From NCBI GenBank assembly GCA_016284515.1, contig JAEEOY010000029.1, positions 1-39,946 on the forward strand: 39,946 bases of DNA, given 5' to 3'. The DNA is from Kiritimatiellia bacterium (GTDB taxonomy: Bacteria > Verrucomicrobiota > Kiritimatiellia > RFP12 > UBA1067). Below the pieces are notes generated by a model. It had not been told where the DNA came from. It saw nothing but the letters and a program-made list of their open reading frames with translations, and made no database searches. The number at the start of each line of letters is the position of its first letter. Positions within the stretch are counted from its first letter, which is position 1. Positions 4,810 through 22,403 of the stretch are shown here, one piece after another. The translations under genes were made by a program, and so were the position numbers.

Positions 4810-4833
4810 ATGGCTATTCAAAGGAGGAATTGA
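4810..4833 (+). other. Possible 7-codon leader ORF (MAIQRRN) overlapping the relay gene start
   Basis: An ATG at 4810 opens a seven-codon frame ending TGA at 4831-4833, which overlaps the ATG of the next gene as TGATG. Its tandem AGG AGG codons are the Shine-Dalgarno sequence of the downstream gene. It lies within the predicted leader transcript and has a weak AGGGA upstream. It could couple translation of the large gene, but a chance frame is equally possible. Confidence 0.25.
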
Positions 4834-6509
4834 TGGCAGTCGACACGCACGGTAAGGCCCGTATACTAATCGTCGACGACGAGAAGCTGATAAGGCTTAC
4901 CCTCAGCGCGAAGCTGAAGAAGGTGGGCTACAACACCGTTGCGGTCGACGGTGTCGAGTCGGCAGTCGCGGAGTTCAAGAAGGACCCCGACTCGTTCAGC
5001 GCCGTCATAACGGACATCATGATGGGTGATATGGACGGGTTCATGTTCCGCGACATAATCCGCGGCTTCGACCCCACCGTGCCGATCTTCTTCCTCACCG
5101 CGCTCGATCCAGAGGAGGGCGGGGGCTTCCTCAAGAAGATTCTCGAAGATCCGATAAGCTACTATCTGCCGAAGGCGGTCCCTACGAACGTGCTCCTCAG
5201 GCGAGTCCGCCAGGTAGTCGCCTCGCACCGAGTCGAGATGTTCATCCAGAACAAGATGGACGATGACCGCAAGTCCTTGGAGTTGGCCGCGCACATCCAG
5301 CGAAGCCTTCTGCCGATCCGGGCGATCCAGACTCCGCGCGGCTTCTACTCGACGTACTGGCGTCCGGCGGACGTGGTTAGCGGCGACCTCATAGAGGCGA
5401 TCCGCTACGGCACGGGAAGCTATCTTTACGTCCTTGGGGACATCCAGGGCCACGGCACGAGCGCGGCGCTCGCGATGACGGCGGTGCAGTCGTTCCTCAA
5501 GAACCTCCTCCGCAGCGACGGCGCGCCGCTGATGATGCCCGACATGATCGCCAACATGATGCAGTCGTTCTTCCGCGCAAACCTCGCGGAGGTCTCTTAC
5601 ATGACGGTGCTCATCTGCATCCACCGTCCGCTCCTCGGCCTGGTGCAGTGGATATCCTGCGGCGCGCCGGACCTGATCGTCGTAGAGAACGGCGAGGACC
5701 TGCCGATAAACCCGGAGAAGAAGGGCGGGCTCCCGATTGGGCTCTTTGCCGATACGGTATACACCCCTGACGACGTCGTGGAGACGAAGCTCTCGCGCGA
5801 GTCGATATGCATCGCATACACCGACGGACTCTTCGACATTTCGCGCGACGTGTCCGGTGAGGAGAGGCTGCCGCAGCCGCTTTCGCAGAAGATCCGCCGC
5901 GAGATCGCTCTGTCCGCCAGGCAGGAGGGTTCGCTAATGTCGGCTCTTCCGAAGTTCGTCAAGGCGCTTTCGGAATTCGGCTACGACAAGTTCCTGGACG
6001 ACGTCACGCTCGTCACCTTCGGAGCGCGGACATGGGTGCCCGGCATCTACGAGGCGACGTTCCGCGTATTTGCGGACGAGATAGACGCGGCGTCACAGGA
6101 GATCGCGAAGTGGTGCCGCGAGCGGGGCTGGCCCGAGGAGGGCATCACGCGCGTTCAGCTCGTCTTCGAGGAGAAGCTGATGAACGTTCATGACCACGGC
6201 TTCGACGACCGCGACCGCCTGCGCGAGGTGGCGTCCGTGCGGCTCAAGCGGATTCGCGACAACGCCGTCCTCACCGTCTGGGAGACGGGTTCTCCGGAGC
6301 CGAGCATCGAAGTCGCTGCGGGAGATGCGTCGACGGCTTTCGAGATGGCGAACATGAACATGGCCGGACGCGGTCGCGGGCGGCTTATGGTGCGGGAGCT
6401 GTGCGAGGGCGTTGAGCGCAACCGCTACATGAACATGAACGAGACGACTTACCACATACCGCTGTTCGGCAAGGACAGTGAAAAGGAAAAAACGGAAGGA
6501 GCGAAATGA
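4833..6509 (+). CDS. Receiver / SpoIIE-type PP2C phosphatase / RsbW-like kinase (HsbR- and SypE-like)
   Basis: 558 residues. The start at 4833 is set by AAGGAGG (4821-4827); a longer in-frame ATG at 4635 would precede the promoter. Domains in order: a response-regulator receiver (1-130) with acidic pocket D15/D16, phospho-acceptor D61, T89 and K114; a linker helix; a SpoIIE/RsbU PP2C phosphatase (about 150-415) with metal ligands in VSGDL (D185), GDIQGHG (D203), YTDGLFD and DDVTLVTF; and a C-terminal HATPase_c of the RsbW/SpoIIAB type (about 425-545) with N-box EEKLMNVHDHG and a GRGRGRLMV glycine segment. The G1 box reads ETG instead of the usual DxG. The same combination occurs in P. aeruginosa HsbR, where phosphorylation of the receiver switches between kinase and phosphatase action on a STAS protein. 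The HPt gene follows in an ATGA overlap and the STAS gene lies 3 kb downstream. Confidence 0.9.
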   Translation: MAVDTHGKARILIVDDEKLIRLTLSAKLKKVGYNTVAVDGVESAVAEFKKDPDSFSAVITDIMMGDMDGFMFRDIIRGFDPTVPIFFLTALDPEEGGGFLKKILEDPISYYLPKAVPTNVLLRRVRQVVASHRVEMFIQNKMDDDRKSLELAAHIQRSLLPIRAIQTPRGFYSTYWRPADVVSGDLIEAIRYGTGSYLYVLGDIQGHGTSAALAMTAVQSFLKNLLRSDGAPLMMPDMIANMMQSFFRANLAEVSYMTVLICIHRPLLGLVQWISCGAPDLIVVENGEDLPINPEKKGGLPIGLFADTVYTPDDVVETKLSRESICIAYTDGLFDISRDVSGEERLPQPLSQKIRREIALSARQEGSLMSALPKFVKALSEFGYDKFLDDVTLVTFGARTWVPGIYEATFRVFADEIDAASQEIAKWCRERGWPEEGITRVQLVFEEKLMNVHDHGFDDRDRLREVASVRLKRIRDNAVLTVWETGSPEPSIEVAAGDASTAFEMANMNMAGRGRGRLMVRELCEGVERNRYMNMNETTYHIPLFGKDSEKEKTEGAK

Positions 6510-6814
6510 AGGAGTGCTGCAAGGTCTATCTCGACGAACAGTTCGGCGGAGACGCCGACGTTATCGGCGAGATATACAACGAATACGTTTCGTCGGTGCA
6601 CGAGAAGCTCGCTGACGCCGAGCAGGCGCGCGCCGCGAATGAATGGGAGCGGCTCGATCGCGTTGCGCACACTGTCAAGGGCAACGCGCTCGCCGCTGGC
6701 GACAACGCGATGGCCGAGACCGCGATTGCGCTGCGCAAGGCTGCCGCGCTCAAGGACGCACCAGAGGTGGACACCCTCATCGCGCGCCTCCGCGAACTCG
6801 AAAAGGAACTCTGA
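6506..6814 (+). CDS. Stand-alone HPt phosphotransfer protein (HptB-like)
   Basis: 102 residues, helical throughout, with the HPt signature AHTVKGNA; the phospho-accepting histidine is H55. The start ATG overlaps the preceding TGA (ATGA) and has a GAAGGAGCG ribosome site. HPt proteins carry phosphate from the receiver of a hybrid kinase to a response regulator. It is the only HPt domain in the window, while three hybrid kinases here (9884, 15141, 35302) end in receivers without an HPt. Translational coupling to the REC-PP2C-RsbW gene suggests that protein's receiver (D61) as its target, by analogy with HptB-HsbR in Pseudomonas. Confidence 0.9.
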   Translation: MKECCKVYLDEQFGGDADVIGEIYNEYVSSVHEKLADAEQARAANEWERLDRVAHTVKGNALAAGDNAMAETAIALRKAAALKDAPEVDTLIARLRELEKEL

Positions 6815-6822
6815 CATAGAAC

Positions 6823-7551
6823 ATGGCAAGTTTTCTGGACAGATCGAAGGACGCTGACCTGGATCAGCTTCTCCGCGAGTTGTCGGCGCGCACACACGGC
6901 GGCCGGCGCAGGAGTCTGCGCCTGCAGGCCTGGCGGATGACCGTGCGCGGCTCGTATGCCCTGAAGCGCGCGATCGACATCTTCGCGAGCGGACTCGGCA
7001 TGCTCGTTCTTTCGCCTGTCTTCCTTGCCATCGCCCTTGCCGTGAAGTTTACCAGCAAGGGTCCGGTGTTCTTCAGCCAGACTCGCGTCGGGCGCTACGG
7101 GCGGCACTTCAAGTTCTGGAAGTTCCGCAGCATGAGGACGGACGCGGAGGCGCTCAAGGAGAAGCTCCAGGAGCAGAACGAGTCGACGGACGGCGTCATA
7201 TTCAAGATGAAGGACGATCCCCGCATCACGAAGGTCGGTAAGTTCCTCCGGCGCACGAGCCTCGACGAGCTGCCGCAGCTGTGGAACGTCTTCATCGGCG
7301 ACATGAGCCTAGTCGGACCGCGTCCGCCCGTTCCGTCCGAGGTCGCGCAGTACACGCTCGAGGACCGCAAGCGGCTCGACGTCATCCCGGGCATAACCTG
7401 CCTCTGGCAGATAAGCGGACGCAGCGAGATTCCGTTCCACGAGCAGGTGAGGCTCGACAAAGAGTACATCCTCGCGCCGAGCGTGTGGAAGGACATCACG
7501 ATTCTTCTCAAGACGATCCCGGCAATCATCGGCGGAAAGGGGGCGTACTGA
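6823..7551 (+). CDS. Undecaprenyl-phosphate sugar-1-phosphate transferase (Bac_transf family)
   Basis: 242 residues. It is a monotopic phosphoglycosyl transferase that attaches the first sugar phosphate to undecaprenyl phosphate, initiating repeat-unit assembly at the inner membrane face. It has a basic N-terminal tail, one hydrophobic re-entrant segment (about 51-75), then the family motifs KFRSMRTDAE, SLDELPQLWNV with the catalytic Asp-Glu pair D148-E149, GDMSLVGPRPP and PGITCLWQISGR. The short form (no extra N-terminal membrane bundle) resembles PglC or the catalytic half of WcaJ/WbaP. The sugar substrate cannot be read from sequence. It starts 8 bases after the HPt gene without a clear ribosome site, so it is probably translated from the same message. 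Confidence 0.93.
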   Translation: MASFLDRSKDADLDQLLRELSARTHGGRRRSLRLQAWRMTVRGSYALKRAIDIFASGLGMLVLSPVFLAIALAVKFTSKGPVFFSQTRVGRYGRHFKFWKFRSMRTDAEALKEKLQEQNESTDGVIFKMKDDPRITKVGKFLRRTSLDELPQLWNVFIGDMSLVGPRPPVPSEVAQYTLEDRKRLDVIPGITCLWQISGRSEIPFHEQVRLDKEYILAPSVWKDITILLKTIPAIIGGKGAY

Positions 7552-8480
7552 TGGACAACATCCTTTTCGTTCCGGCCACGCACGAGCTCGAATGGGTGCA
7601 GGATGTCCTGCCCGGGACTAGCCCCGCCGAACTTCCAGTCGCAGGTAGGCGCATCATCGACTACTCTTTCCAGTGCGCGCAGAAGTTCGGCGTCATATTC
7701 ACCGAGGTGCTCGACTGGCATTTCTCCAAGCGGCTTGCCGATGACTTCAGCGACCTCACGCGCACGGGCTATCCGGTTTTCTACATGAAGGGCGAGGGAC
7801 CAGTGCCGAAGGGGCTTAGGGACATAGAGAACTATTCGAGTCCGCTTACCTCGCCCGTCTCCGACGGACTCGTCGTCGTCTGGGGCGCGGCGATATCGGC
7901 GCACACAATCGAGGAGGTCAAGCTCGAGCCCCTCTCGGACGCAGAGTGCGAGGAGACTCCTGCCGGTGTATACAGGCGCGACGGCGGACGCTGGATGCGC
8001 GTCCTGCCGCACGGACTCGTCGCGCGCTCGGTGAAGGCGTGGCATGCGCTCAACTTCCTGATTCTCAAGGAAAGCGAAAAGTTCACGATCCCTGGCTATT
8101 CGTCCGAGAAGGGCGTCCACCTCGGACGGAACGTCATCATGGAGTACGGGACGGAGGCGAAGCCGCCCGTGCTGATGGCAAACAATACCTGGTGTGGACG
8201 CAACGTGCGCCTTGACGGCGACGTCATCGTCAACAGCGGCTCGTTCATCGGCGAGGGCACGCGCCTTAGACGCACCGTGGTGTGCCGCGACACGTATGTC
8301 GGCGTAGGGCTCGACCTGGACGGCAAGATCGTCGTCGGAAGACGAGTCATCGACGCGGCGAGCGGCGCCTGGGTGGACGTGGAGGAGCCCGGTCTTGCAA
8401 GAAAGATTCCTACCGGCCTCGGCTGGGTCAGGTCGCTCTGGCACTTCATCCGCGGGCATTCGTTCGGGAGGAGGGGCTGA
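7551..8480 (+). CDS. NDP-sugar nucleotidyltransferase-like protein with left-handed beta-helix tail
   Basis: 309 residues, ATG overlapping the previous stop (TGATG). A region near residue 28 (LPVAGRRIIDYSF) resembles the substrate loop of sugar nucleotidyltransferases such as GlmU or mannose-1-phosphate guanylyltransferases, but the classical glycine-rich nucleotide loop before it is not evident. The C-terminal half (about 180-280) has hexapeptide-like spacing typical of a left-handed beta-helix (segments around GVHLGRNVIME, GRNVRLDGDVIV, GSFIGEGTRL). It may make or modify an activated sugar for the polysaccharide, or may be a catalytically reduced relative. It sits between the initiating transferase and another nucleotidyltransferase-fold gene in one overlapping set. 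Confidence 0.6.
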   Translation: MDNILFVPATHELEWVQDVLPGTSPAELPVAGRRIIDYSFQCAQKFGVIFTEVLDWHFSKRLADDFSDLTRTGYPVFYMKGEGPVPKGLRDIENYSSPLTSPVSDGLVVVWGAAISAHTIEEVKLEPLSDAECEETPAGVYRRDGGRWMRVLPHGLVARSVKAWHALNFLILKESEKFTIPGYSSEKGVHLGRNVIMEYGTEAKPPVLMANNTWCGRNVRLDGDVIVNSGSFIGEGTRLRRTVVCRDTYVGVGLDLDGKIVVGRRVIDAASGAWVDVEEPGLARKIPTGLGWVRSLWHFIRGHSFGRRG

Positions 8481-9481
8481 TGGGCAGGTTCGTCGCAGGA
8501 GAGTGTCCGGAACTCGACCGGCTCGTCGCCGAATCGCTCGTCGCGATAGGGCGCGAGGTCTCGGAGATGCGCATTCCGCTTCTCTCTGGCGTCGTGCTAG
8601 GCGGAGGCTATGGCCGCGGCGAGGGCGGTGTGAGAGAGTGTAAAGTTGAAAGTGTAAAGTGTAAAGTTGAGGGAATGCCGGTTGCCGAATGTCGGCTGTC
8701 CAACGACCTGGATTTCTTTGCGATAACCAAGGACGGCACGACGGACGCCGATGCGGTGACGGTCGCGAAGGCACTCGAGCCGGTCTCGCGCCGCTGGACA
8801 GAAAAGCTCGGTATCGACGTTGACTTCACCAGCAAGACGCCGTGGCGCATCCGCCACGACCAGGAGCGGCTCATGGTGCAGGAGCTGATACACGGCTATG
8901 TCGACGTCGCGGGCGCGACGGGGGAGGAGCTCTTTGCCGGCATTCCGCGCCGCGAACCGTCGGAACTGCCGTGGATCGAGGCCGCGCGCCTTCTCATGAA
9001 CCGCGGCATGGGGCTGCTTCTGGCCAAAAGCAAAATGGAAAGCGCCAAATGCGAAGTCGACTTCATAAACCGAAACATAAACAAGTGCATCCTCGGCGCT
9101 GGCGACGCGCGGCTCATCGCGAACCGCAAGTACAGATGGCGCGCGCCGGAGAGGGCGGAGGCTCTCCGCGACCAGATGTACCGCAAAGCCGTCGCGTGGA
9201 AGTTCCGTCCGACTGAAAGCGCCGTGTGCGACTGGAACACGGCGAGGGACGTCTGGCGGGCGGCGTGCGAGGAGGTCATGGAGAATGGTGCTTGCAGAGG
9301 GGCGCTCGGGCGCTCGTTGCGCGAGGCCGCGCGCTGGGTCGTGAGGCGCCGCACGCTCGGCGCTCCGGCGAGCTTCGGACAGAACTGCACGGTGCGGGTG
9401 CTGCGCGGCGTCAAGCGGTGCATCGAAAAGCGCTTGCCGCTGCCGGAGGCGCTTCGACGAGACTGGGAGATATTCAACTGA
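8480..9481 (+). CDS. Nucleotidyltransferase-fold protein carrying two repeat-derived insertions
   Basis: 333 residues, ATG overlapping the previous TGA. The N-terminal half shows a pol-beta/MNT-type nucleotidyltransferase signature: LGGGYGRGEGG (about 37-47) followed, after a long insertion, by NDLDFF with the two metal-binding aspartates. The gap between the glycine motif and the Asp motif is stretched by a low-complexity peptide (CKVESVKCKVE) encoded by heptamer repeats at 8638-8672. A related peptide (SKMESAKCEVD, nt 9031-9063) sits in a second loop before a conserved-looking GAGDARLIANRKY segment. The frame stays open across both. The acceptor is unknown; the location suggests a role in the polysaccharide locus. 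Confidence 0.65.
   Translation: MGRFVAGECPELDRLVAESLVAIGREVSEMRIPLLSGVVLGGGYGRGEGGVRECKVESVKCKVEGMPVAECRLSNDLDFFAITKDGTTDADAVTVAKALEPVSRRWTEKLGIDVDFTSKTPWRIRHDQERLMVQELIHGYVDVAGATGEELFAGIPRREPSELPWIEAARLLMNRGMGLLLAKSKMESAKCEVDFINRNINKCILGAGDARLIANRKYRWRAPERAEALRDQMYRKAVAWKFRPTESAVCDWNTARDVWRAACEEVMENGACRGALGRSLREAARWVVRRRTLGAPASFGQNCTVRVLRGVKRCIEKRLPLPEALRRDWEIFN
8638..8672 (+). repeat. Heptamer repeat tract inside the nucleotidyltransferase gene
   Basis: Five consecutive heptamers: GTGTAAA, GTTGAAA, GTGTAAA, GTGTAAA, GTTGAGG. As a larger unit, GTGTAAAGTTGA occurs exactly at 8638-8649 and 8659-8670, 21 bases apart. It is markedly richer in A/T than the surrounding gene and in frame, adding the peptide CKVESVKCKVEG between two active-site motifs. 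Confidence 0.85.
9031..9063 (+). repeat. Diverged second copy of the same inserted peptide
   Basis: It encodes SKMESAKCEVD, matching the peptide at 8638-8672 position by position (K-V/M-E-S-V/A-K-C-K/E-V-E/D). The codons differ mostly at third positions towards the gene's GC-rich usage (AGT to AGC, TGT to TGC, GTT to GTC). This looks like an older, ameliorated copy, though chance similarity of short charged peptides cannot be excluded. Confidence 0.5.
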
Positions 9482-9499
9482 ACGCAGAATGAACTGCCA

Positions 9500-9534
9500 A
9501 CTAACGACTATCGACAATCGACTAACGACTAATA
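9500..9534 (+). repeat. Intergenic heptamer repeat upstream of the STAS gene
   Basis: Five heptamers: ACTAACG, ACTATCG, ACAATCG, ACTAACG, ACTAATA. ACTAACGACTA recurs exactly 21 bases apart (9500, 9521). It fills most of the 65-base gap between the nucleotidyltransferase gene and the STAS gene and ends just before the AAGGAG ribosome site. Confidence 0.85.
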
Positions 9535-9546
9535 AAGGAGTAAAAA

Positions 9547-9870
9547 ATGGCATGGAACATAAGTGAAGAAGGAAAGACGCTGAAGGTAGAGATCGACGGA
9601 CGCCTTGTGGCGGCCGTCGCGCCGACGCTTCGCGAAGACATACTGGGCAAGCTTCAGGACGGGATGAATGTGCTCTTCGATCTGTCTGGCATGGTGCATG
9701 TCGACTCCAGCGGACTCGGCGTGCTCGTGCAGGTGCTGCAGAAGGTGAAGTCCGGCGGCGGCAAGGTAGTGCTGGCGGCGCTCCAGCCCGGACCGAAGAT
9801 CGTATTCGACATCACGAAGGTGAGCAGAGTGTTCGAAATAGTGCCGACCGTTGCGGACGCGAAGTTCTGA
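9547..9870 (+). CDS. STAS-domain anti-sigma-factor antagonist (HsbA/SypA/SpoIIAA-like)
   Basis: 107 residues, the full length of a single STAS domain. It contains the conserved phosphorylation motif VDSSGLGVL (S54/S55), preceded by the strand NVLFDLSGM. The start follows AAGGAG (9535-9540) at 6 bases. Such proteins are phosphorylated on the serine by an RsbW-type kinase and dephosphorylated by a PP2C phosphatase; the unphosphorylated form binds and sequesters a partner. Both activities are predicted in the protein encoded at 4833-6509. In P. aeruginosa the equivalent HsbA links to FlgM and a diguanylate cyclase, and in Vibrio fischeri SypA controls polysaccharide output; the partner here is not visible. 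Confidence 0.92.
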   Translation: MAWNISEEGKTLKVEIDGRLVAAVAPTLREDILGKLQDGMNVLFDLSGMVHVDSSGLGVLVQVLQKVKSGGGKVVLAALQPGPKIVFDITKVSRVFEIVPTVADAKF

Positions 9871-9883
9871 GAGAGGAGGGGGG

Positions 9884-12800
9884 ATGAGAGTTCTTGAGGA
9901 CATGAGGGACATGCGTGGCATGGGGGACGAGAGATGTGTCTCGCGTCGCACTGGTCTCTTATGCTGCTCACGGCGTCTGACGGTTATTTCCGCTTTTTTG
10001 GCGATTGCGGCGTCTTTTGCCGCCTTCGCCGAAAGCGTTAGGGTCGCCGACTGCGAGCGCGACGCGAAGCTGGACTTCTGGGCGGCGGCGGACAACGAAT
10101 TCTGCGTCGCGGTGATGAACGACGTGTTCCGATCCGCCGGATTGGAGACGACGCGCGTCGAGTTCGGGCCGGACCATCTTCTCGACGTGTCCAAGGCCGA
10201 CGTGATCTGCTCGGCGTTCCGCACGAAGAAACTGCTCAAGGACTTCGACTTTCCGCAGCAGCCGCTCGGAAGGATGCATTTTGCGCTCTACGCGACGCCG
10301 TCGCGCGCGATGGAGCTCATGTCCACGAAGATCACCGAGTGGCCGCGTCTCAGGATCGGCTACTCGCCCGTCTCCCAGGGGCAGATATCGAACGACGACC
10401 GCACGAAGTACTTCGAGCACGCGAGGCTGTCGCCAACGTACGTGGAGATTCCGACGAGCGTCGGCGCCGTGCAGGCGCTGCAAGACGGGGAGATCGACGC
10501 GCTCTTCCTCTACACGCCGTTCGGAAAGCGTCCGGAGGGCGTTGTTGAGGTCGTCCCCATCGGCTCGCGCAACGTCTACTTCGCCGTCAGCAAGAAGAAG
10601 CCCGAGCTCCTCAGGAAACTCGAGAAGGCGTACCGTTCGTGCTACATCGACCACATCGACATGTACGACGAGCTGCGCGAGAAGCACCTCGGGATACCGA
10701 AGCCGCAGAAGCGGGTGCGTGTCGCAGCCTACAGCCGCGGCGATCTCTTCGAGGTGACGCCAGACGGCGAGCGGTCGGGCGCGCTCGAGGTGTGGCTCAA
10801 GGCGATCGTCGGCCACACGCACTGGACGGTCGACTACGTGTACGGCGACTACGACGAGAGCATTGCGGACGTCCACAGCGGACGCCTCGACGTGATAGGC
10901 GGCATCGGCTTTGCGGCGCAGAGGCGCGACATGTTCCGCTATCCGCACACGCCGATGGGAATGCTGCGCGTGTACCTGTGGACGCATCCGAACAGCCCGT
11001 ACGTGCCGGGCGACCCGAAGACCTGGCACGGCATGAAGGTCGGTCTTCTCGCCAGCACCATAAGCGCGCAGCGGGCGCGCCGTCAGTTCGACGGCGACGA
11101 GTCGATATCGTGCGTCGAGTTCTCGTCCGACCGCGCCATGCTCAACGCCTACTTTTCAGGAGACGTCGACGCATGCGTAGACGTCGAGATGCCGGAGCTA
11201 AAGGACGAAAAGGCGCTGCACCTCTATGCGTCGCATCCGATGTACATCTGCACATCGCTCCAGCGCAAGGACCTGTTCCTCGAGCTCGAGCAGGCGATGG
11301 ACGAGATATGCGACGACTTCCCGAAGTACCTGAGGATGATAAGCGAGCACCACTACGGCAGGCACAGCGACATGGCGGCGCTTTCGCTTGAGGAAAGCAA
11401 CTGGCTCTCGCGCAGGCTCGGCAATGACAGTCCGATAATGATCGACTTCTCGCCGTGGCCGTTTCCGCTGAAGGACGACAAGGGCCGCGCCGCCGGTTTC
11501 GTCGGGGACCTTCTCGCCGAGCTCCACAACAGGACGGGGCTGAGGTTTTCGCTTGCGCCGCAGACGGACATCAACACGGCGGAGGCGAAGTTTCTGCGCG
11601 GCGACACGGATCTGTGGATTCCGTATCCCGTCAAGGCCTCCTCGGCGACTTACGGCGCGACGTCCGTCTTTGCGGTTCCTGTTCCCCAGAGCGTCGCGCA
11701 GGAGATAGGCGCGGAGGACATGTACCAGGAGTTCGAGATGTTTGCGCGTCCGAACGTTCCGAAGGAGCTCGTCTCCATCCTCAACAAGGTCATGACGGGC
11801 ATCGACCAGACGCAGCTCCAGGAGATGTTCATGGCGGACGCGGCGGAGCGACAGGTAGTCCACCGTGTCTTCGGCTTGACCAAGGAGGAGCTTACGCACA
11901 GGATCGCGTTCATCGCGCTCGTCATTCTCGCTGTCGTCGTGGTGTTCGGTTCCGTGATGATCGCGCTTCTAGTGAAGCAGACAAAGCGCGCCAACGCCGC
12001 GGCTGCCGTCGCCGAGGAGCATGCGCAGGCCAAGACAAGGTTCCTTGCGATGATGTCGCACGAGCTCAGGACGCCGCTCAACGCGGTCGTCGGCTTCGCC
12101 GAGTTCCTGGCGCGCGGCAATCTCGACGAGGAGCTCAGGCACGACTACACCGAGGGCATTCTGCTCAGCTCAAACGCGCTCCTCGAGCTCATCAACGACA
12201 TTCTCGACCTCTCGAAGCTCGACGCAGGAGCGATGGACATGCGTTCCGGGCAGTGCGACCTCAACCAGCTCCTCAAGGAGCTTCCGGCAATATTCGGCTA
12301 CCGCGTCCGCCGCCACGGCGTTAAGCTGCGCATTGACGTCCAGGGGGAGATTCCGGTCGTCGCTCTCTACCAGCAGGGGATGCGCCAGATACTCATCAAC
12401 CTCGTCGGAAACTCCGCGAAGTTCACGGAGAAGGGTGAGATCGCCATCCTCGCGCGCTGGGTGCCGGAGAGCCGCGCGCTGCACGTCGAGGTGTCCGACA
12501 CCGGATGCGGCATGTCGAAGGAGAAGATGTCCAAGCTGTTCGATCCGTTCGTGCAGGACATCGCCTCGCGGATGAAGTCCGCCAGCGGCGAGCAGAAGGG
12601 AACGGGCCTTGGGCTCGCGATCGTCAAGCGCATGGTAGAGAGCGCGGGCGGAACAATCACGGCCGAGAGCACTCTCGGTAAGGGCTCGCGCTTCATCATC
12701 GAGATTCCCGGACTCGATACCGTCGAGGTTGTCCGCACAGCCGCGCAGTCCTCCGCCGAGACAATGTCCGCCGCGCTCCCCGAGCGCGTCCTCGTCGTGG

Positions 12801-13132
12801 ACGACATGATGATGAACCGCAAGATCCTCGGCATCCACCTCGGCAACCTCGGGGTGAAGGAGGTGCGCTACGCCGAGAACGGCGTGCAGGCGCTCGAGGT
12901 GATGCACGAGTGGGTTCCGGACGTGGTGCTCACTGACATGTGGATGCCGGACATGGACGGAACGCAGCTCGCCGAGGCGATGCGCCGCGACCGCCGCCTG
13001 GCGGAGATCCCGATCGTCGCCGTTACCGCGGATGTCGACGTAGGCTCCACATACGACATGTCGCTTTTCTCCAAGGTCATCTCCAAGCCAGTCACGGGCG
13101 AGAAACTGCGAATGATGTTCGGGAGGATGTAG
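9884..13132 (+). CDS. Hybrid histidine kinase with three SBP_bac_3-like sensor domains
   Basis: 1082 residues from ATG 9884, which follows AGGAGG (9874-9879). Alternative starts are a TTG at 9851, inside the STAS gene, and in-frame ATGs at 9902, 9911 and 9920; 9920 leaves the neatest signal peptide (RRLTVISAFLAIAASFAAFA). After it come periplasmic binding-protein-type domains at about 50-275, 275-510 and 515-660, the third degenerate; one TM helix at about 672-697; a HisKA with H726 (MSHELRTPLN); a HATPase_c (N-box NLVGNSAKF, G1 DTGCGMS, G2 GTGLGLAIV); and a receiver with D1018 (LTDMWMPDMDG). There is no HPt or DNA-binding output. It probably senses a small solute in the periplasm and passes phosphate to a separate HPt, most simply the one at 6506. 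Confidence 0.92.
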   Translation: MRVLEDMRDMRGMGDERCVSRRTGLLCCSRRLTVISAFLAIAASFAAFAESVRVADCERDAKLDFWAAADNEFCVAVMNDVFRSAGLETTRVEFGPDHLLDVSKADVICSAFRTKKLLKDFDFPQQPLGRMHFALYATPSRAMELMSTKITEWPRLRIGYSPVSQGQISNDDRTKYFEHARLSPTYVEIPTSVGAVQALQDGEIDALFLYTPFGKRPEGVVEVVPIGSRNVYFAVSKKKPELLRKLEKAYRSCYIDHIDMYDELREKHLGIPKPQKRVRVAAYSRGDLFEVTPDGERSGALEVWLKAIVGHTHWTVDYVYGDYDESIADVHSGRLDVIGGIGFAAQRRDMFRYPHTPMGMLRVYLWTHPNSPYVPGDPKTWHGMKVGLLASTISAQRARRQFDGDESISCVEFSSDRAMLNAYFSGDVDACVDVEMPELKDEKALHLYASHPMYICTSLQRKDLFLELEQAMDEICDDFPKYLRMISEHHYGRHSDMAALSLEESNWLSRRLGNDSPIMIDFSPWPFPLKDDKGRAAGFVGDLLAELHNRTGLRFSLAPQTDINTAEAKFLRGDTDLWIPYPVKASSATYGATSVFAVPVPQSVAQEIGAEDMYQEFEMFARPNVPKELVSILNKVMTGIDQTQLQEMFMADAAERQVVHRVFGLTKEELTHRIAFIALVILAVVVVFGSVMIALLVKQTKRANAAAAVAEEHAQAKTRFLAMMSHELRTPLNAVVGFAEFLARGNLDEELRHDYTEGILLSSNALLELINDILDLSKLDAGAMDMRSGQCDLNQLLKELPAIFGYRVRRHGVKLRIDVQGEIPVVALYQQGMRQILINLVGNSAKFTEKGEIAILARWVPESRALHVEVSDTGCGMSKEKMSKLFDPFVQDIASRMKSASGEQKGTGLGLAIVKRMVESAGGTITAESTLGKGSRFIIEIPGLDTVEVVRTAAQSSAETMSAALPERVLVVDDMMMNRKILGIHLGNLGVKEVRYAENGVQALEVMHEWVPDVVLTDMWMPDMDGTQLAEAMRRDRRLAEIPIVAVTADVDVGSTYDMSLFSKVISKPVTGEKLRMMFGRM
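9893..9955 (+). repeat. Low-complexity tract at the 5' end of the hybrid kinase gene
   Basis: Loose repeats of GGACATGAG / GACATGCGTG / GCATGGGG followed by a small hairpin (CGAGA, six-base loop, TCTCG). It supplies three extra in-frame ATG codons and an N-terminal extension before the signal peptide, so the true start codon is hard to fix. Confidence 0.4.
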
Positions 13133-13134
13133 CA

Positions 13135-15144
13135 ATGAGACTGCTCGTGTCCTGCATACCGTACGACTCCGGCAAAAGCGGAATCTCCACGTACGTGCGC
13201 GAGGTCGTCAAGGCGCTCGCGGCGCAGGGACACGAGCTGACTCTTCTTTGCGAGCCGGAAGAGACGGGACGTGGGAGAGATTGCGGCGTGAGTGACGAGG
13301 GGGGCGAGAGGGGCGCGAGCAGTCTCGCGTCTCTTGTGCCTGCCGCGTCCGATCAAATCAGCATCCGCTCGGTTTTCGCCCCGCGCTGGACGCGGCGCGC
13401 GGTGTTCTCGATGCTGTGGCATCTGTTTGTGCTGCCGTTCAAGCTGAGGCGCTGGAGGCGCGACTTCGACGGTTTCGTCATCTGCGCCGCGAACAGGCGC
13501 GTCTGCGCGTGGTATCCGATCGAGACTACGGCGACGGTCCACGACCTCGCGAACTTCCACATACCCGGGAAGTACTCGCGGCTTAGGATGTTCTACCTCG
13601 CGCACGTCCTGCCGTTCTTCGCGAAGAGGGCGCAGCACCTCGTCGCGGTGAGCGAGGCGACGAAGGCCGACATGGTGAAGTTCTGGCACTGCCGCGAAGA
13701 GGACGTCACGGTGCTTTATAATGGGCTGACGCGGGACGCTAGGGGAGCGGGAGACGAGAGCTCGTGTCGCCTGTCGCCTGTCGCGCGACATGCGTCATGC
13801 GACACGCAGCCAGCTACCGACTTTAAACTCTCAACTCTCCTCTACATCTCGCGCATCGAGCATCCCGGGAAAAACCACGTAAGGCTCATCGAGGCCTACG
13901 GCAAACTGCCGCGGGAGATCGTCGAGGCGCATCCTCTAGTGATTGCGGGCGCGGACTGGAAGGACGCCGAAGTCGTTCACGAGGCGGCGAAGAAGTCGGC
14001 GCACGCAGATCTCATCCGCTTCACCGGATTCGTCGACGCGGCGGATATGCCGCGCCTCTGGGACGAGGCGGGGTTCTATGTGTTCCCGAGTCTTTTCGAG
14101 GGCTTCGGGCTTTCGCTCATCGAGGCGATGGACCGCGGAATTCCCTGCGCGTGCTCGAACAACGGCTCCCTGGGCGAGATAGCGGGAGACGTCGCGATCA
14201 CGTTCGATCCGTATGACGTGGATTCCATTGCAGAGGCGCTAAGGGGGCTGCTCTCTGAAACGCGAGAGGCGCGCGAGGCGCGTGTGGCGCGGGGGCGCGA
14301 GTGGATCAAGCGCTATTCGTGGGAGGATCACGCGAAGGGGATCGCGAGGCTGCTGGGGCAAACACGCGTCGCCCGTCTATTCGGGATTCCTGTCGCGCGG
14401 GTTTCTGAGACAGAGGCCGTCGAGCGCATAATCTCTTTTGCAAAGAGGGGAAAGTTGGAGACTCTAGCTCGGAAACCGGCCTTCATTGCGACCTTGAACG
14501 TCGACTTCGTCACGAACGCGGTGAGCGGCTGGCCGTTCGGCGGCAACGACGAGCTTTGGGGATATCTCAGGAACGCCGACTTCGTGACTGCCGACGGAAT
14601 GCCCATCGTGCTTCTTTCGAAGCTGCTGCGCCGTCCGATACCAGAGCGCGTGACGGGTGCGGACATGGTTCCGCGAATCTGCCGCCGCTGCGCCGAGGAG
14701 GGGATGTCGGTCTACGTGCTCGGCGGCGACAGAGAGGCGATAGAAGAGGCGTTTGGGAAGTTGGGACTTGATGGGCGTGAGTTGAGAGTTGCCGGCATCG
14801 ACCCGGCGTTCGTGAAGCTCGACGAGGAGCAGCCCGACATAGTCGCGCGCATAAACGCGGCGAAGCCTGATGTCCTCTTCGTAGCGCTGGGGAACCCGAA
14901 GCAGGAGCTGTGGATGGGAAGGAACGCCGCGAAGCTCGACGTCGGCGCGATGATCGGAATCGGCGGGACGTTCAACTTCATCGCCGGACGCGTGAAGCGC
15001 GCGCCGAAGTGGATGCAGAAATCGGGGCTTGAGTGGATATACCGAATAATCCAGGAGCCGGGGAGACTGTGGAAGCGATATGCCTACGGACTCGTCAAGT
15101 TCGGCTGGCTGTCTCTGCGGGCGATGGCGGGAGGTTATAGATGA
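13135..15144 (+). CDS. Fused GT4 glycosyltransferase and WecB/TagA/CpsF (GT26) glycosyltransferase
   Basis: 669 residues from ATG 13135, two bases after the kinase stop. Residues 1-410 are a GT-B retaining glycosyltransferase (GT4 type): an N-terminal MRLLVSCIPYDSGKSGISTYV glycine loop, LYISRIEHPGKNHVRLIEA at the C-domain start, and FPSLFEGFGLSLIEAMD with the E-x7-E pair. Residues 415-669 are a complete WecB/TagA/CpsF domain: IATLNVDFVTNA, TADGMPIVLL, the ALGNPKQELWMGRN signature and GIGGTFNFIAGRVKRAP. Both would act on lipid-linked intermediates at the cytoplasmic membrane, so one chain may add two successive sugars. Four low-complexity tracts (13265-13345, 13729-13839, 14260-14300, 14759-14793) interrupt it in frame at loops. 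The next gene starts in an ATGA overlap. Confidence 0.9.
   Translation: MRLLVSCIPYDSGKSGISTYVREVVKALAAQGHELTLLCEPEETGRGRDCGVSDEGGERGASSLASLVPAASDQISIRSVFAPRWTRRAVFSMLWHLFVLPFKLRRWRRDFDGFVICAANRRVCAWYPIETTATVHDLANFHIPGKYSRLRMFYLAHVLPFFAKRAQHLVAVSEATKADMVKFWHCREEDVTVLYNGLTRDARGAGDESSCRLSPVARHASCDTQPATDFKLSTLLYISRIEHPGKNHVRLIEAYGKLPREIVEAHPLVIAGADWKDAEVVHEAAKKSAHADLIRFTGFVDAADMPRLWDEAGFYVFPSLFEGFGLSLIEAMDRGIPCACSNNGSLGEIAGDVAITFDPYDVDSIAEALRGLLSETREAREARVARGREWIKRYSWEDHAKGIARLLGQTRVARLFGIPVARVSETEAVERIISFAKRGKLETLARKPAFIATLNVDFVTNAVSGWPFGGNDELWGYLRNADFVTADGMPIVLLSKLLRRPIPERVTGADMVPRICRRCAEEGMSVYVLGGDREAIEEAFGKLGLDGRELRVAGIDPAFVKLDEEQPDIVARINAAKPDVLFVALGNPKQELWMGRNAAKLDVGAMIGIGGTFNFIAGRVKRAPKWMQKSGLEWIYRIIQEPGRLWKRYAYGLVKFGWLSLRAMAGGYR
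13265..13345 (+). repeat. Low-complexity palindromic tract in the GT4-GT26 gene
   Basis: Purine-rich words (GACGGGACGTGGGAGAG, GAGGGGGGCGAGAGGGG) followed by a hairpin CGCGAG-cagt-CTCGCG (about 13316-13331), whose stem can extend with G-T pairs. It encodes a Gly/Glu/Arg/Ser-rich loop in the N-terminal domain and keeps the frame. Confidence 0.5.
13729..13839 (+). repeat. Heptamer repeat with palindromes in the GT4-GT26 gene
   Basis: Six consecutive heptamers at 13765-13806: TGTCGCC, TGTCGCC, TGTCGCG, CGACATG, CGTCATG, CGACACG. They contain the perfect palindrome TGTCGCGCGACA (13779-13790) and outer arms GTGTCGC/GCGACAC (13764-13770, 13799-13805). A second tract AACTCTC twice (13826-13839) follows. 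The insertion lies exactly in the linker between the two GT-B domains and stays in frame. Confidence 0.8.
14260..14300 (+). repeat. Nonamer repeat in the GT4-GT26 gene
   Basis: Consecutive nonamers ACGCGAGAG, GCGCGCGAG, GCGCGTGTG, GCGCGGGGG encode the peptide TREAREARVARGRE near the end of the GT4 half. The word ACGCGAGAG also occurs in the nonamer tract of the GT4 gene at 18752-18787. Confidence 0.6.
14759..14793 (+). repeat. Degenerate heptamer repeat in the GT26 half
   Basis: Heptamers AGTTGGG, ACTTGAT, GGGCGTG, AGTTGAG, AGTTGCC encode KLGLDGRELRVA, a variable surface loop of the WecB/TagA fold. The words resemble the GTTGAGA repeats at 17583-17657. Confidence 0.55.
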
Positions 15145-18071
15145 AAAGAAGAACCTTGCTGGTTCATCTGTCGGCCTTCGGGGCGTGGGCCATAGCCTTT
15201 GGATGCGCGGTCGGATGGGATGTGCTTGTCTTGCCGTGGACGACCTTTCTGCCCACGGCGGGTCCGCTCGGCACGCTTCTTGGTCTCCTCGCCGGCGCGC
15301 TCATCATGGTCGTCATTGCGTGGAACTTCCACTATATGATCGGGAAGTGCCCCGGCATCGGCGGGGTCTATTCCTACGCCAAGATGGCGTTCGGGCCGGA
15401 CCACGGGTACATCTGCGCATGGTTCCTGTTCCTTGCGTACGCGGCGATAGTGTGGGCGGACGCCACGGTGCTTGCCGTGATAGTGCGCTACATGGTCGAC
15501 GCGGAGTCCTTCAGGGATGCGTTCTCGTTCAGCGTCGCGGGGTGCAGCTTCTATTTCGGGGACATGCTGATCGTCGCGCTGGCGATGGTAGTCGTCGTCT
15601 TTCTCTGTATCCGCCGACGCCTTGCGGCGGCAGTTCAGATTGCCTTTGCCCTGATGATGGCGGTGGGAATCGCCGCGTGCTTCGTGTCCGCGGCGTCCAA
15701 GCACATTGTCGTCGGCATGTCGATGTCTCCGTCCTTCTCGCCCACTGGCGGTTCGCCGGTTGTCCAGTTCATAAACATCCTGACGATTTCGCCGTGGCTT
15801 TTCGTCGGAATCGAGGCGATGTCTGCAATGACCGCCGAGTTCGGCTTCCCGCGCAGGAAGGCGTTCGGGATCATGCTCGCCGCGATTGTCGCCTCGGTGG
15901 CGGCATACATAGCGGCGATGCTGATTCCGGTCTTCGCCTACAGCGACTCCGCCGCTGGGTGGCCCGCCGCACTGGAGGGGATTGGCGGCGACGCGAACGT
16001 CCGAGCATTCGACGTCGTCAAGAGATGCGTCGGCGGAGCGGGTCCGTTCGTCCTTGGGGTGACTCTCGTCGGCGCGCTGTTCACGAACCTCGTCGGGAAC
16101 ACGATAGTTGCCAGCCGTCTTGTCGCCGCCATGGCGGAGGACAGCGCGATGCCCCAATGGCTCGGCAAGTGGCACGGGAAGCTGTCCGCGCGCAGCGGCA
16201 TCATCGGGATAGCCGTGCTTGCCGTCGTCGTCTCCTCGCTCGGCGAGGCGGTGGTGAACGTCATCGTCGACATCGCGCTTGTCGGCGCGGCGATAGCCTA
16301 CGCCTACACGTCCGCTGCGACGTTCAAGGTCGCGCTTGGAGATGGCAGGCGGGTTTCTGCTGCGCTGGGGTTTGTCGGGTTTGCATCGTCCGTGGCGATC
16401 GCGTTCATGTTCATCTTCCCGACGCTGTATTCCGAATCCACGTCGATGGGGACTATGTCCTTCCTCTTCCTCGTCGCCTGCTGCGTCGCCGGTCTCGTTG
16501 CGTTTCTGTTCGTGTGCAGACACGACGACCAGCATCGGTTCGGGCATTCCTCCGCGGTGTGGATTGGTCTCTTCGTCGTCATCATCGTGGTGTCGCACCT
16601 GTGGGCCAGACAGACGGCGCGCGACACGATGATGAAGGCCTACGCGGACATCGTGGAATACCACGCGACCGAGTGCCTTCCGTCTGCCGGCGAGGCGGAT
16701 GTCAGGCGCGGGGAGGACTGGCACGTGGCCCTCAAGGGCAAGCTGCAATCCGTGCGCAGCGCCATCGTGAGGAACAGCTACGTCCAGAGCGGGATCGACC
16801 TCCTTGCCCTTGCGTTGATGTTCGCCGTATACAGGATACTGCGCAGGCGCGAGCTCGCCATGGAGCGCGAGAAGGCGAAGGCCAAGAGCTTCTTCTTCTC
16901 GACGGTTAGCCACGACATCAGGACGCCCCTGAACGCGATCATCGGCTTTTCCGAGATGCTGAAGTCCGGCTTCGCGACAGATGCCGAGCGCGATCAGGCG
17001 GTTGACTCCATAGTCGCGAGCGGCAAGACTCTTCTCGGTCTCGTCAACGACGTCCTTGACCTCTCGAAGCTTGAGTCCGGGAAGATGGAGATAGTGCCGG
17101 AGCCGACGGACTGCGTAAGGCTGCTTCGCGACGTTACGGAGGCATTCAGGCTTGCGGGCGGGGAAGCGGGTGTCGAGGTCCGCTGCCGTGCGGACGCCAT
17201 GCCATGCCTTGTGGTCGATCCGCAGAGGCTTAGGCAGATTGCGTTCAACCTCGTCGGCAACGCGGTGAAGTTCACGCACGAGGGCTACGTCGAAGTGCGC
17301 GCGTCGTTCGTTCCGAACGAAGATGTCCAGTCGGGAACGCTGCAGCTCACCGTGGAGGACACGGGCTGCGGAATATCCGACGAGGATTTGAAGCGCATAG
17401 GCTCGGCGTATGTGCAGGTAGGCGCGAAGGAGTCGCGCAACGGCGGCACGGGTCTTGGGCTTGCGATATGTCGCCAGCTCGTGACGGCGATGGGCGGCAG
17501 GATGGATGTCGAGTCGGAGCTCGGGAAGGGGTCCACGTTCACAGTGACGATACCGGGGGTGAAAGTCGTGGAAAGCGGAGAAGTTAAGAGTGGGGGAGTT
17601 GAGAGTGGGGGAGTTGGGAGTGGAGGAGTTAAGAGTGGAGGAGTGGAGGAGTTAACGCACCCACTCACCCACTCACCCACTCACCCACTCAACAACTCAC
17701 CCGCTTGCCGCCGCATCCTAGTCGTGGACGACACAAAGATGAACGTAATGGTCATGAAGGCACAACTGAAGAACATCGGGAAGTTCGAGGTCTCGTCCGC
17801 ATCGAACGGTCAGGATGCGCTCGAGTTGCTCCGCCGTGGCGCGGAGCGGTTCGATCTGGTGCTGACGGACATGTGGATGCCGCTGCTGGACGGCGAGGGG
17901 CTCGTAAAGGCCATTCGGGCCGATCCCGCGCTTTCGGGAATGTGCGTCGTCGTCGTAACGGCGGACGTGGAGTTCAGGGCAAAGTTCGCGCAGGTCGGAT
18001 TCGACGACATACTCCTCAAGCCTGTTACAAAGGGCAAGCTCGTTGAGTTGCTGTCAAAGGAGGGAAGATGA
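15141..18071 (+). CDS. APC-family permease fused to hybrid histidine kinase
   Basis: 976 residues, ATGA overlap with the preceding gene. Residues 1-460 form about twelve hydrophobic segments with amino acid-polyamine-cation (APC) permease features: a first helix leading to VLPW, GPLGTLLGLLAGALIM, and CPGIGGVYSYAKMAFGP like the PxxGGxYxY motif. Further helices lie near 475-490 and 545-562, with a ~55-residue region between them. Then come a HisKA (SHDIRTPLN, H591), a HATPase_c (NLVGNAVKF, DTGCGIS, GTGLGLAIC), a repeat-encoded linker (about 815-855) and a receiver with D910 (LTDMWMP). Transporter-kinase fusions are known for SSS permeases (CbrA type), and an APC version is unusual. It probably senses, and perhaps imports, an amino acid or amine. 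No HPt or output domain is present. Confidence 0.9.
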   Translation: MKRRTLLVHLSAFGAWAIAFGCAVGWDVLVLPWTTFLPTAGPLGTLLGLLAGALIMVVIAWNFHYMIGKCPGIGGVYSYAKMAFGPDHGYICAWFLFLAYAAIVWADATVLAVIVRYMVDAESFRDAFSFSVAGCSFYFGDMLIVALAMVVVVFLCIRRRLAAAVQIAFALMMAVGIAACFVSAASKHIVVGMSMSPSFSPTGGSPVVQFINILTISPWLFVGIEAMSAMTAEFGFPRRKAFGIMLAAIVASVAAYIAAMLIPVFAYSDSAAGWPAALEGIGGDANVRAFDVVKRCVGGAGPFVLGVTLVGALFTNLVGNTIVASRLVAAMAEDSAMPQWLGKWHGKLSARSGIIGIAVLAVVVSSLGEAVVNVIVDIALVGAAIAYAYTSAATFKVALGDGRRVSAALGFVGFASSVAIAFMFIFPTLYSESTSMGTMSFLFLVACCVAGLVAFLFVCRHDDQHRFGHSSAVWIGLFVVIIVVSHLWARQTARDTMMKAYADIVEYHATECLPSAGEADVRRGEDWHVALKGKLQSVRSAIVRNSYVQSGIDLLALALMFAVYRILRRRELAMEREKAKAKSFFFSTVSHDIRTPLNAIIGFSEMLKSGFATDAERDQAVDSIVASGKTLLGLVNDVLDLSKLESGKMEIVPEPTDCVRLLRDVTEAFRLAGGEAGVEVRCRADAMPCLVVDPQRLRQIAFNLVGNAVKFTHEGYVEVRASFVPNEDVQSGTLQLTVEDTGCGISDEDLKRIGSAYVQVGAKESRNGGTGLGLAICRQLVTAMGGRMDVESELGKGSTFTVTIPGVKVVESGEVKSGGVESGGVGSGGVKSGGVEELTHPLTHSPTHPLNNSPACRRILVVDDTKMNVMVMKAQLKNIGKFEVSSASNGQDALELLRRGAERFDLVLTDMWMPLLDGEGLVKAIRADPALSGMCVVVVTADVEFRAKFAQVGFDDILLKPVTKGKLVELLSKEGR
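17583..17703 (+). repeat. Bipartite G-rich/C-rich repeat tract in the kinase-receiver linker
   Basis: The first half has four 15-mers (7+8): GTTAAGAGTGGGGGA, GTTGAGAGTGGGGGA, GTTGGGAGTGGAGGA, GTTAAGAGTGGAGGA, then GTGGAGGA and GTTAACG. The second half has the octamer CACCCACT four times exactly (17658-17689), then CAACAACT. The halves are G-rich and C-rich on the same strand and roughly complementary, so a long imperfect hairpin or G-quadruplex is possible. It encodes VKSGG VESGG VGSGG VKSGG and a Thr-His-Pro/Ser-Pro segment linking HATPase to receiver. Confidence 0.9.
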
Positions 18072-21341: not shown

Positions 21342-22399
21342 GGATTCCCGTAATCTTCTGTGTAGCCGCTGTCACACTGATTGGATGCTATACCGACAGG
21401 ATGACATCCAACTACAACGATGTTTTCGAGGTCACCAACACGGACGACGACAGTGCAGTCATAGACGAAAGCGGCCGCACTGCGGAGGACGAGGCGCGCA
21501 TACGAAAACGCCTTATGGAGCTTGAGATGGAGGAGGAGCCAGCGTACCACATGAACGCCGGCGACCAGGTCGAGATACGCGTCTATGACCATCCGGACCT
21601 CGGCATGACTACGCGCATAGGCCCGGACGGAATGGTCGGCATCGCGTTCATGGGACAGGTGAAGCTCAGCGGACAGACGATAGCGCAGGGCGCCGAGTGC
21701 ATTCGCGAGGGACTTGCCCCGTACGTGAAGAATCCTGTCGTGAGCATAACCGTGCTCGACGTTCAGAGCGAGACGGCGACAATCGCCGGCGCATGCGCGA
21801 AGCCTGGGGTGTACAACATCTCCAACGCGACGAGGCTTGCCGACTTTTACGCGATGGCCGGGTCTAGCGCCGAGCGGCTTTTCAACGGAGTGGATGTTGA
21901 TGTCGCCGACCTTGAGCATTCTATTTTTGTCAGAAAGGGTGAGCTTCTTCCGGTGGACTTCGTCAAGGCAATCAGCAAAGGTGACTTGCTGCACAACATC
22001 AGAGTCCGCAAGGGCGATTATGTGTTCATCGCCCAGCGAATGGAGGCGTCGGTCGTCATATGCGGCGAGGTCCGGAATCCGCACAAGCGTCTGTTCGAGG
22101 CTGGCATGGGGCTCATAGAGACTCTTACGGCCGCGGGGTGGATAAAGGAATCTCACTGGAGCCATGTTATCATAATCAGGGACGGGCTGGCGCATCCGAA
22201 GCTCTACAAGGTGGATGTCGACGGCATTCTCGCCGGGAAGTGCCGCAACGTCACTCTTAAGGCGGGTGACATAATCTATGTGCCGAAGGACAATCTATCG
22301 GAGTACAATGTGTTCGTCAACAAGCTCCTTCCTACGGCGCAGATATTCAGCCTGATTGCAGGCCGGGCGTCTGCTGTCGGACTGGGCTCAAACAACTGA
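21338..22399 (+). CDS. Polysaccharide export outer-membrane lipoprotein (Wza/OPX family)
   Basis: 353 residues, ATGA overlap with the co-polymerase. The N-terminus is a lipoprotein signal peptide with lipobox LIGC (C17). After a short acidic linker comes the Poly_export domain, starting YHMNAGDQVEIRVYDHPDL, followed by SLBB-type domains (ETATIAGACAKPGVYNI and EASVVICGEVRNPHKR). OPX proteins form the outer-membrane channel for the finished polymer and dock onto the co-polymerase encoded next door, so the pair forms the trans-envelope export machine. The C-terminal helix expected for Wza is short here (VFVNKLLPTAQIFSLIAG). Confidence 0.93.
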   Translation: MRIPVIFCVAAVTLIGCYTDRMTSNYNDVFEVTNTDDDSAVIDESGRTAEDEARIRKRLMELEMEEEPAYHMNAGDQVEIRVYDHPDLGMTTRIGPDGMVGIAFMGQVKLSGQTIAQGAECIREGLAPYVKNPVVSITVLDVQSETATIAGACAKPGVYNISNATRLADFYAMAGSSAERLFNGVDVDVADLEHSIFVRKGELLPVDFVKAISKGDLLHNIRVRKGDYVFIAQRMEASVVICGEVRNPHKRLFEAGMGLIETLTAAGWIKESHWSHVIIIRDGLAHPKLYKVDVDGILAGKCRNVTLKAGDIIYVPKDNLSEYNVFVNKLLPTAQIFSLIAGRASAVGLGSNN

Positions 22400-22403
22400 C
22401 GAC

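Follow-up and report, generated by a model that had tools for sequence, protein, structure and literature searches.

In Pseudomonas aeruginosa, the HptB-HsbR-HsbA system (PA3345-3347) gathers the signals of three hybrid kinases in one histidine phosphotransfer (HPt) protein, HsbA acts via FlgM/FliA and the diguanylate cyclase HsbD, and RpoS is a binding partner of HsbR, as set out in the portions of the cited reports on which this and the following comparisons draw (PMC6482189; PMC5085249). HsbR displays the domain order REC-PP2C-HATPase, as does CrsR (PMC6482189). In Vibrio fischeri, the STAS protein SypA has an unknown target, with no evidence for a sigma factor in the corresponding portions of the literature (PMC4517449; PMC10120452), and the targets of HmpV and RbaV are likewise described as unknown (PMC8256260). 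Here we describe an exopolysaccharide (EPS) operon that encodes a REC-PP2C-HATPase switch protein (the 4833 protein), a single HPt protein, and a single STAS protein within the window, which is the whole 39,946-nucleotide stretch analyzed, contig C153 of a 3.86 Mb Kiritimatiellia draft genome (G000, 92.45% complete). The operon presents a known relay and switch in a new setting, with candidate targets and, as far as gene content shows, an HptB-type relay from many kinases to one HPt within a polysaccharide operon. Our favored reading, in which we place moderate confidence, is that a phosphorelay with several inputs determines the phosphorylation state of the STAS protein, which would gate EPS assembly directly, in a sigma-independent, SypA-like manner.

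Like HptB-HsbR-HsbA, the locus encodes a REC-PP2C-HATPase regulator, a separate HPt protein, and a STAS protein together (PMC6482189; PMC5085249), and several hybrid kinases without HPt (three in the window, eight in the genome) accompany one HPt. Unlike the hsb genes of P. aeruginosa, which sit with flagellar and chemotaxis genes, these genes lie in an EPS operon, and the genome yielded neither GGDEF nor a second sigma factor with region 3, in searches that did not include FlgM, extracytoplasmic function (ECF) sigma factors, or sigma-54. Judged from sequence, the upstream half appears to share those defining features of HptB-HsbR-HsbA that were tested, while the output half does not; the likeness proposed in a first-pass annotation of the window thus stands for domain order, HPt, STAS, and hybrid kinases, and falls short for the known HsbA outputs. 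The receiver of SypE is central, whereas that of the 4833 protein is N-terminal in Pfam, and a SypE-type domain order was rejected on this account. What remains of the likeness to SypE-SypA, also proposed at first pass, is a kinase/phosphatase regulator and a STAS gene in a polysaccharide locus (PMC4517449; PMC10120452), although transcription in V. fischeri is under the control of the DNA-binding regulator SypG (PMC4517449). HmpUVW of Nostoc punctiforme is similarly a partner switch in a hormogonium motility/polysaccharide locus, but there one protein is the phosphatase (HmpU) and another the kinase (HmpW), and no HPt relay is mentioned in the relevant part of the report (PMC8256260). CrsR-CrsA of Shewanella oneidensis shares the domain order of the 4833 protein and has RpoS as its output (PMC6482189), whereas the present genome yielded no second region-3 sigma factor. 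With regard to the canonical SpoIIAA/RsbV-type switch, which pairs a cognate sigma factor with the anti-sigma RsbW, the search for region-3 sigma factors gave no second one, and no frame of RsbW size scored above the HATPase_c_2 cut-off. Within the open-access literature searched, subscription papers falling mostly outside it, no paper combined Verrucomicrobi- with partner-switching, and none described this cluster as far as titles and the beginnings of abstracts tell. The main text of a paper on EPS in cultured Kiritimatiellae, so far as it was covered, makes no mention of STAS, anti-sigma, or histidine kinase (PMC7356697).

Under the favored reading, the hybrid kinases, at least two of which are encoded in the operon, would autophosphorylate and phosphorylate their own REC domains, from which the phosphate would travel to H55 of the single HPt protein and on to D61 of the 4833 protein. 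If HsbR and SypE are a guide, the phosphorylated REC would favor the phosphatase and hence unphosphorylated STAS, and the unphosphorylated REC would favor the kinase and hence STAS phosphorylated on S54. The unphosphorylated STAS protein, following the SypA-like sign, would have one of the EPS initiation proteins as its direct target rather than free a sigma factor, the candidates being the phosphoglycosyltransferase (PGT) 6823, the hexapeptide protein 7569, and the nucleotidyltransferase-fold protein 8480 (Table 1). Each transfer of phosphate in this chain is inferred, as are the sign with which the switch works and the target of STAS. The relay logic, from hybrid-kinase REC through H55 and D61 to the kinase/phosphatase and the STAS serine, is supported by gene content and conservation, and the evidence points towards the EPS machinery for the STAS target, with the 8480 protein as a candidate.

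Pfam bears out the first-pass claim of a REC-PP2C-RsbW protein, a single HPt, and a single STAS in one EPS gene run, and the phosphorylation positions named there (H55, D61, S54/S55) read as claimed in sequence and alignment. Specifically, the 4833 protein matches Response_reg at residues 11-125, SpoIIE/PP2C at 195-396, and HATPase_c_2 at 416-531; its REC acceptor set consists of D15, D16, D61, T89, and K114, with D61 unchanged in all 16 rows of the switch-protein alignment, and its PP2C Asp set (D185, D203, D331, D389/390) is invariant, gaps apart, over 61 rows. These rows represent the window and 60 relatives, contig-cut spans included. The HPt gene overlaps the switch gene by four bases and its product matches Pfam Hpt at 38.7 bits (cut-off 24.6); the phosphoacceptor His is present in all 47 loci with an HPt, including the seven in which the Lys of HxxKG is gone. 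The STAS protein scores 75.3 bits against a cut-off of 22.6 and carries S54/S55 in a VDSSGLG phosphosite region, and the corresponding motif, DS[ST]xxG, is found in 42 of the 44 matched stretches.

That many kinases might share one HPt is suggested by the genome totals, which comprise 13 HisKA and 45 REC matches but only one PF01627 match, that of the HPt at 6506-6814 (8/14 control genomes gave matches). By a hand reading of coordinates, eight of the 13 HisKA matches are followed by a REC match in the same open frame, and on these grounds the window's three kinases are no longer claimed to be the sole inputs. Those three do end in REC as described at first pass, and Pfam finds no Hpt match in any of them. 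The third, whose N-terminal region was taken at first pass to be of membrane type, lies outside the tight gene run, and its relatives lie within the operon in L043, L044, and L050. Among 28 genomes searched, 26 gave Hpt matches, and the 21 that bear the switch have one or two each. In addition, the sensor of the 15141-18071 kinase matches amino-acid permeases (AA_permease_2, E 3.5e-10) and not the SLC5 domain that, in the portions of the literature covered, serves CbrA/CrbS; a limited literature search, extending to parts of the sources, returned no obvious permease-kinase of the AA_permease_2 type. Relatives' operons contain several copies of this permease-kinase (three in L056) as well as runs of hybrid kinases (L044:7243-18750, L050:8162-11855), and in genome G002 one operon kinase frame has its own Hpt match (C30:22621-22827).

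The arrangement recurs. Among 57 related genomes, 21 encode a relative of the switch protein, whole or contig-cut (matches to E 3.5e-79), and at E 1e-60 the switch is found in 48 of 387 genomes of the phylum. Co-occurrence in related genomes, set as a check by the first-pass annotation, is evident among the 61 loci: HPt is found in 47, an 8480 homologue in 42, PGT in 41, the hexapeptide protein in 40, STAS in 35, Wza in 14, and Wzy in 13, all of which are lower bounds because many spans stop at contig ends. At least one of STAS, PGT, and the 8480 homologue accompanies the switch in 55/61. In 46 of the 47 loci with an HPt, its gene follows the switch gene directly, 0.6-1.1 kb centre to centre, the exception being L060 (5.7 kb upstream), and in the distant loci without HPt L253, L257-L259, L261, L262, L269, and L270 STAS is instead encoded some 1 kb 5' of the switch gene. 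Its presence in several families of the phylum makes the arrangement more than chance. The best named relatives of the switch protein (L123-L130), from Lentisphaerae, Kiritimatiellia/Kiritimatiellae, and Verrucomicrobia drafts, some from rumen, reach at most 63% identity and have HPt beside the switch gene in 8/8 and STAS in 6/8; the 61 do not include them, several seeming to be the same contigs as other sampled genomes. On a separate note, switch-HPt copies from distant families (L235, L236, L238) nest inside the window's clade in the tree, and G145 and G384 hold a second copy of the switch that lacks HPt and has a broken REC (L252, L244); nested and second copies alike possibly reflect transfer between lineages.

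The findings that weigh against the favored reading concern, in turn, the kinase domain, the coupling of HPt to REC, the output, and the link between STAS and EPS. In the kinase domain, the G1-box Asp is replaced by Glu (E484) in the window and in 6/60 relatives, and for this reason the kinase activity of the window's switch protein, while likely, is less safe than that of its relatives. Were the kinase domain dead, the protein would be a phosphatase only and another RsbW-like kinase would phosphorylate STAS, a role for which three other PP2C-HATPase frames (C36, C74, C242) are at hand in the genome. Glu is nonetheless a conservative replacement, the closest relative (L041, 75% identity) retains the Asp, and the N-box residues E447/N451 and the glycines G514/G516 are kept in 61/61, such that we regard a phosphatase-only protein as very improbable.

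With respect to coupling, the REC acceptor set is broken in 5/13 loci without HPt versus 0/45 with HPt (L056, L058, and L061, where REC is unreadable, being excluded), a difference with a Fisher p of 2.8e-4, uncorrected for kinship. Two features temper this contrast: D61 itself is changed in only three of the five broken RECs, and REC is intact in the remaining eight loci without HPt, where, if used, it must be served from elsewhere. Furthermore, a tree built without the REC region holds few events (four changes of HPt and three of REC state), with no more than 2-3 independent losses behind the contrast, and although REC in independent pairs either tracks HPt or shows no difference, never the opposite, the comparison has too little power (p 0.5-1). 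In light of the tree, we no longer present the co-loss as statistically secure, and the pattern of loss is perhaps best described as a natural experiment that runs in the right direction on few events. The intact receivers without HPt, the five switch proteins without acceptor residues, and the 45 REC matches that face one HPt would all suit a situation in which these genes are neighbors and not one chain, the HPt serving other regulators and the switch being phosphorylated from elsewhere or working without phosphorylation. Given the position of HPt directly 3' of the switch gene across several families and a whole acceptor set in every locus with HPt and a readable REC, we hold this to be distinctly unlikely, if less so than a dead kinase. 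Six of the 61 loci (L236, L238, L263, L264, L266, L267) lack STAS, PGT, and the 8480 homologue altogether.

As to the output, no GGDEF match was found in the genome (8/14 control genomes gave matches), and the single Sigma70_r3 match (11/14 control genomes gave matches) lies in a 705-aa frame that we read, from its housekeeping-sigma size, as RpoD. Outputs through cyclic di-GMP (c-di-GMP) and through a second region-3 sigma factor were rejected on these grounds, although the genome is 92% complete and a GGDEF protein, a sigma factor, or a second HPt could sit in the gap. HATPase_c_2 gave 27 matches, 17 of them above cut-off and at least four in frame with PP2C (C36, C74, C242, and the window); no above-cut-off match falls in a frame shorter than 295 aa, so that no stand-alone anti-sigma protein of RsbW size was found, and one 195-aa frame scores below cut-off. 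One alternative retains the same relay but has the STAS protein exchange on the 4833 protein's own HATPase domain, as in CrsR, or on some other anti-sigma factor, with an ECF or other sigma factor driving EPS transcription. It draws on the binding of RpoS by HsbR and CrsR through this same kinase domain (PMC6482189), on the STAS protein scoring above the anti-sigma-antagonist superfamily cut-off, and on the ECF and sigma-54 families lying outside the search; it is set against the one region-3 sigma factor and the missing GGDEF, against a scan of 28 window proteins in which no Pfam family of sigma factors or of DNA-binding proteins turned up, and against the fact that STAS and switch travel with EPS genes, whose unannotated neighbors were only partly scanned for sigma factors. 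On balance, we consider a sigma-factor output unlikely, but deserving of more weight than the two preceding alternatives. Because the STAS switch travels with the EPS set and the usual outputs were not found in this one genome, the question of the STAS target narrows to a few neighboring proteins.

Among these, the PGT would start assembly of the EPS repeat unit, and the hexapeptide protein adjoins the PGT in most relatives having both. The description of the switch genes as interleaved with sugar-transfer genes applies to the sugar transferase 6823 but not to all of the interleaved genes, the other two being those of the hexapeptide protein and the 8480 protein. Pfam returned nothing for the 8480-9481 protein at E 0.1, and five of its relatives compared with Pfam at E 10 gave one match in one relative (E 7.4), nothing of note; a profile of the family against the sequences of solved structures gave one match at E 0.65, which was not used. 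A structure model made from seven sequences (pLDDT 85, pTM 0.84) retrieved with Foldseek aminoglycoside nucleotidyltransferases along with further proteins of the same fold, the matches including AAD(9), ANT, AadA, and HalB, two matches reaching E <=0.001, and the best of these, AAD(9), is modest (E 3.8e-4, TM 0.34/0.43). The model thus gives modest support to a nucleotidyltransferase (NTase) fold, at the level of fold and not of family. The motifs GGGYGRGEGG...NDLDF...DF can be read in the sequence, and D76, D78, and D115, which we take to be a putative carboxylate set, are unchanged in the seven rows of the alignment. The model of the hexapeptide protein was poor (pLDDT 52); the N-terminal half of 7569-8480 resembles, by eye, a sugar-nucleotidyltransferase without the GGxGTRL signature.

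At E 1e-8, the 8480 family is found in 98 of 387 genomes of the phylum, with a homologue in 47/48 genomes that have the switch versus 51/339 that do not (Fisher p 1e-31, a value that kinship inflates); among the 51 matches without the switch, the weakest (E 1e-8 to 1e-17) may belong to another family. The row of PGT, hexapeptide protein, and 8480 homologue is found in 10 of 20 loci without the switch that were read, and this assigns the 8480 protein primarily to EPS synthesis; in 9/20 the row occurs without STAS as well, from which it follows that these three proteins do not need the switch. STAS adjoins the 8480 homologue (same strand, gap <900 bases) in 21 of the 34 loci with both, but 17 of these adjacencies represent one arrangement in near kin. 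Furthermore, the genome has two additional STAS matches, and STAS is missing from 26/61 loci, of which contig ends account for only some; L044, for example, has 14.7 kb of downstream sequence and no STAS.

Outside the group of near kin, L302 shares their STAS-8480 order, while L291, L299, and L300 have the reverse. In L299 the switch is rewired into a HATPase-PP2C protein, kinase domain first, with REC in the next gene, and on the opposite strand STAS and the 8480 homologue lie side by side, PGT and hexapeptide protein between. L302 contains no switch gene in its 20 kb span and comes from a genome outside the 48 with the switch; its STAS gene (L302:9784-10137) nevertheless stands beside the 8480 homologue, and the phosphosite Ser has been replaced (EIDYDG instead of IDSSGLG). 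Since this STAS has been kept after loss of the phosphosite, the locus, a single one, suggests that STAS has a job at the EPS proteins themselves, and L299 and L302 together appear to be the clearest pointers to a direct STAS-EPS link. A narrower proposal, that STAS docks directly on the 8480 protein, which would be a nucleotidyltransferase not described before, and gates it free of both sigma factor and c-di-GMP, is one we consider unlikely, about on a par with a sigma-factor output; if true, it would provide a general answer to the question of what SypA-type STAS proteins target.

The genes in question belong to a one-strand run, 4833-26925, with intergenic gaps of at most 65 bases (hand count, with chosen start codons). 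The run begins with the switch protein, HPt, sugar transferase, hexapeptide protein, 8480 gene, STAS, and a hybrid kinase, and continues with glycosyltransferases and a second hybrid kinase before the Wzc-, Wza-, and Wzy-like proteins.

Table 1. Features of the switch and EPS locus, in window coordinates
Feature	Coordinates	Strand	Basis
Switch protein, 558 residues, REC-PP2C-HATPase (RsbW-like)	4833..6509	+	Pfam; 61-row residue check; 16-row alignment
Single-domain HPt protein, 102 residues, predicted phosphoacceptor H55 (AHTVKGN)	6506..6814	+	Pfam Hpt
Bacterial sugar transferase (PGT)	6823..7551	+	Pfam Bac_transf 228 bits; TIGR03025 above cut-off
Hexapeptide-repeat protein, N-terminal half uncharacterized	7569..8480	+	Hexapep match below cut-off; weak GlmU-type matches
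Protein with nucleotidyltransferase-like fold, without Pfam family	8480..9481	+	Structure model, Foldseek
Single-domain STAS protein, predicted phosphosite S54 (S54/S55)	9547..9870	+	Pfam; TIGR00377 above cut-off
Hybrid kinase, solute-binding-type sensor-HisKA-HATPase_c-REC, without HPt; likely input	9884..13132	+	Pfam
Fused GT4 and WecG/TagA/CpsF glycosyltransferase	13132..15144	+	Pfam
Hybrid kinase, amino-acid-permease-like sensor-HisKA-HATPase_c-REC, without HPt; likely input	15141..18071	+	Pfam
GT4 glycosyltransferase	18068..19348	+	Pfam
Chain-length determinant (Wzc-like)	19368..21341	+	No Pfam match; weak TIGR03007 match; position conserved in relatives
Polysaccharide export (Wza-like) protein	21338..22399	+	Pfam Poly_export
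Wzy_C O-antigen ligase/polymerase-like protein	22401..23780	+	Pfam Wzy_C
Hybrid kinase, N-terminal region without Pfam match-HisKA-HATPase_c-REC, without HPt; possible input	35302..37128	+	Pfam

Several minor features of the window deserve mention. Promoter- and terminator-like sites between 4400 and 10200 numbered three each, against shuffle means of 0.9 and 4.2, and were not used. Upstream of the EPS run, the protein encoded at 1607-2257 ends in a PEP-CTERM-like sorting signal (TIGR02595 above cut-off, Pfam PEP-CTERM below cut-off). The GT4 and WecG halves fused at 13132-15144 are split in several relatives (L042, L051, L052, L056, L057), and in L056 a permease-kinase gene is inserted between them. 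The EPS run also contains a GH9 cellulase-like gene (24808-26925), which recurs 3' of the Wzy-like gene in the distant EPS clusters L287, L288, L294, L295, and L304. Lastly, short repetitive in-frame inserts interrupt conserved proteins at approximately 8645-8690, 9035-9070, and 17580-17710 of the window and in L042:11504-12574; examples are KCKVESVKCKVEG, SGGVESGGVGSGG, and GERGMGNG, and relatives have either none or different ones, a pattern in which it is possible to see intragenic repeat elements.

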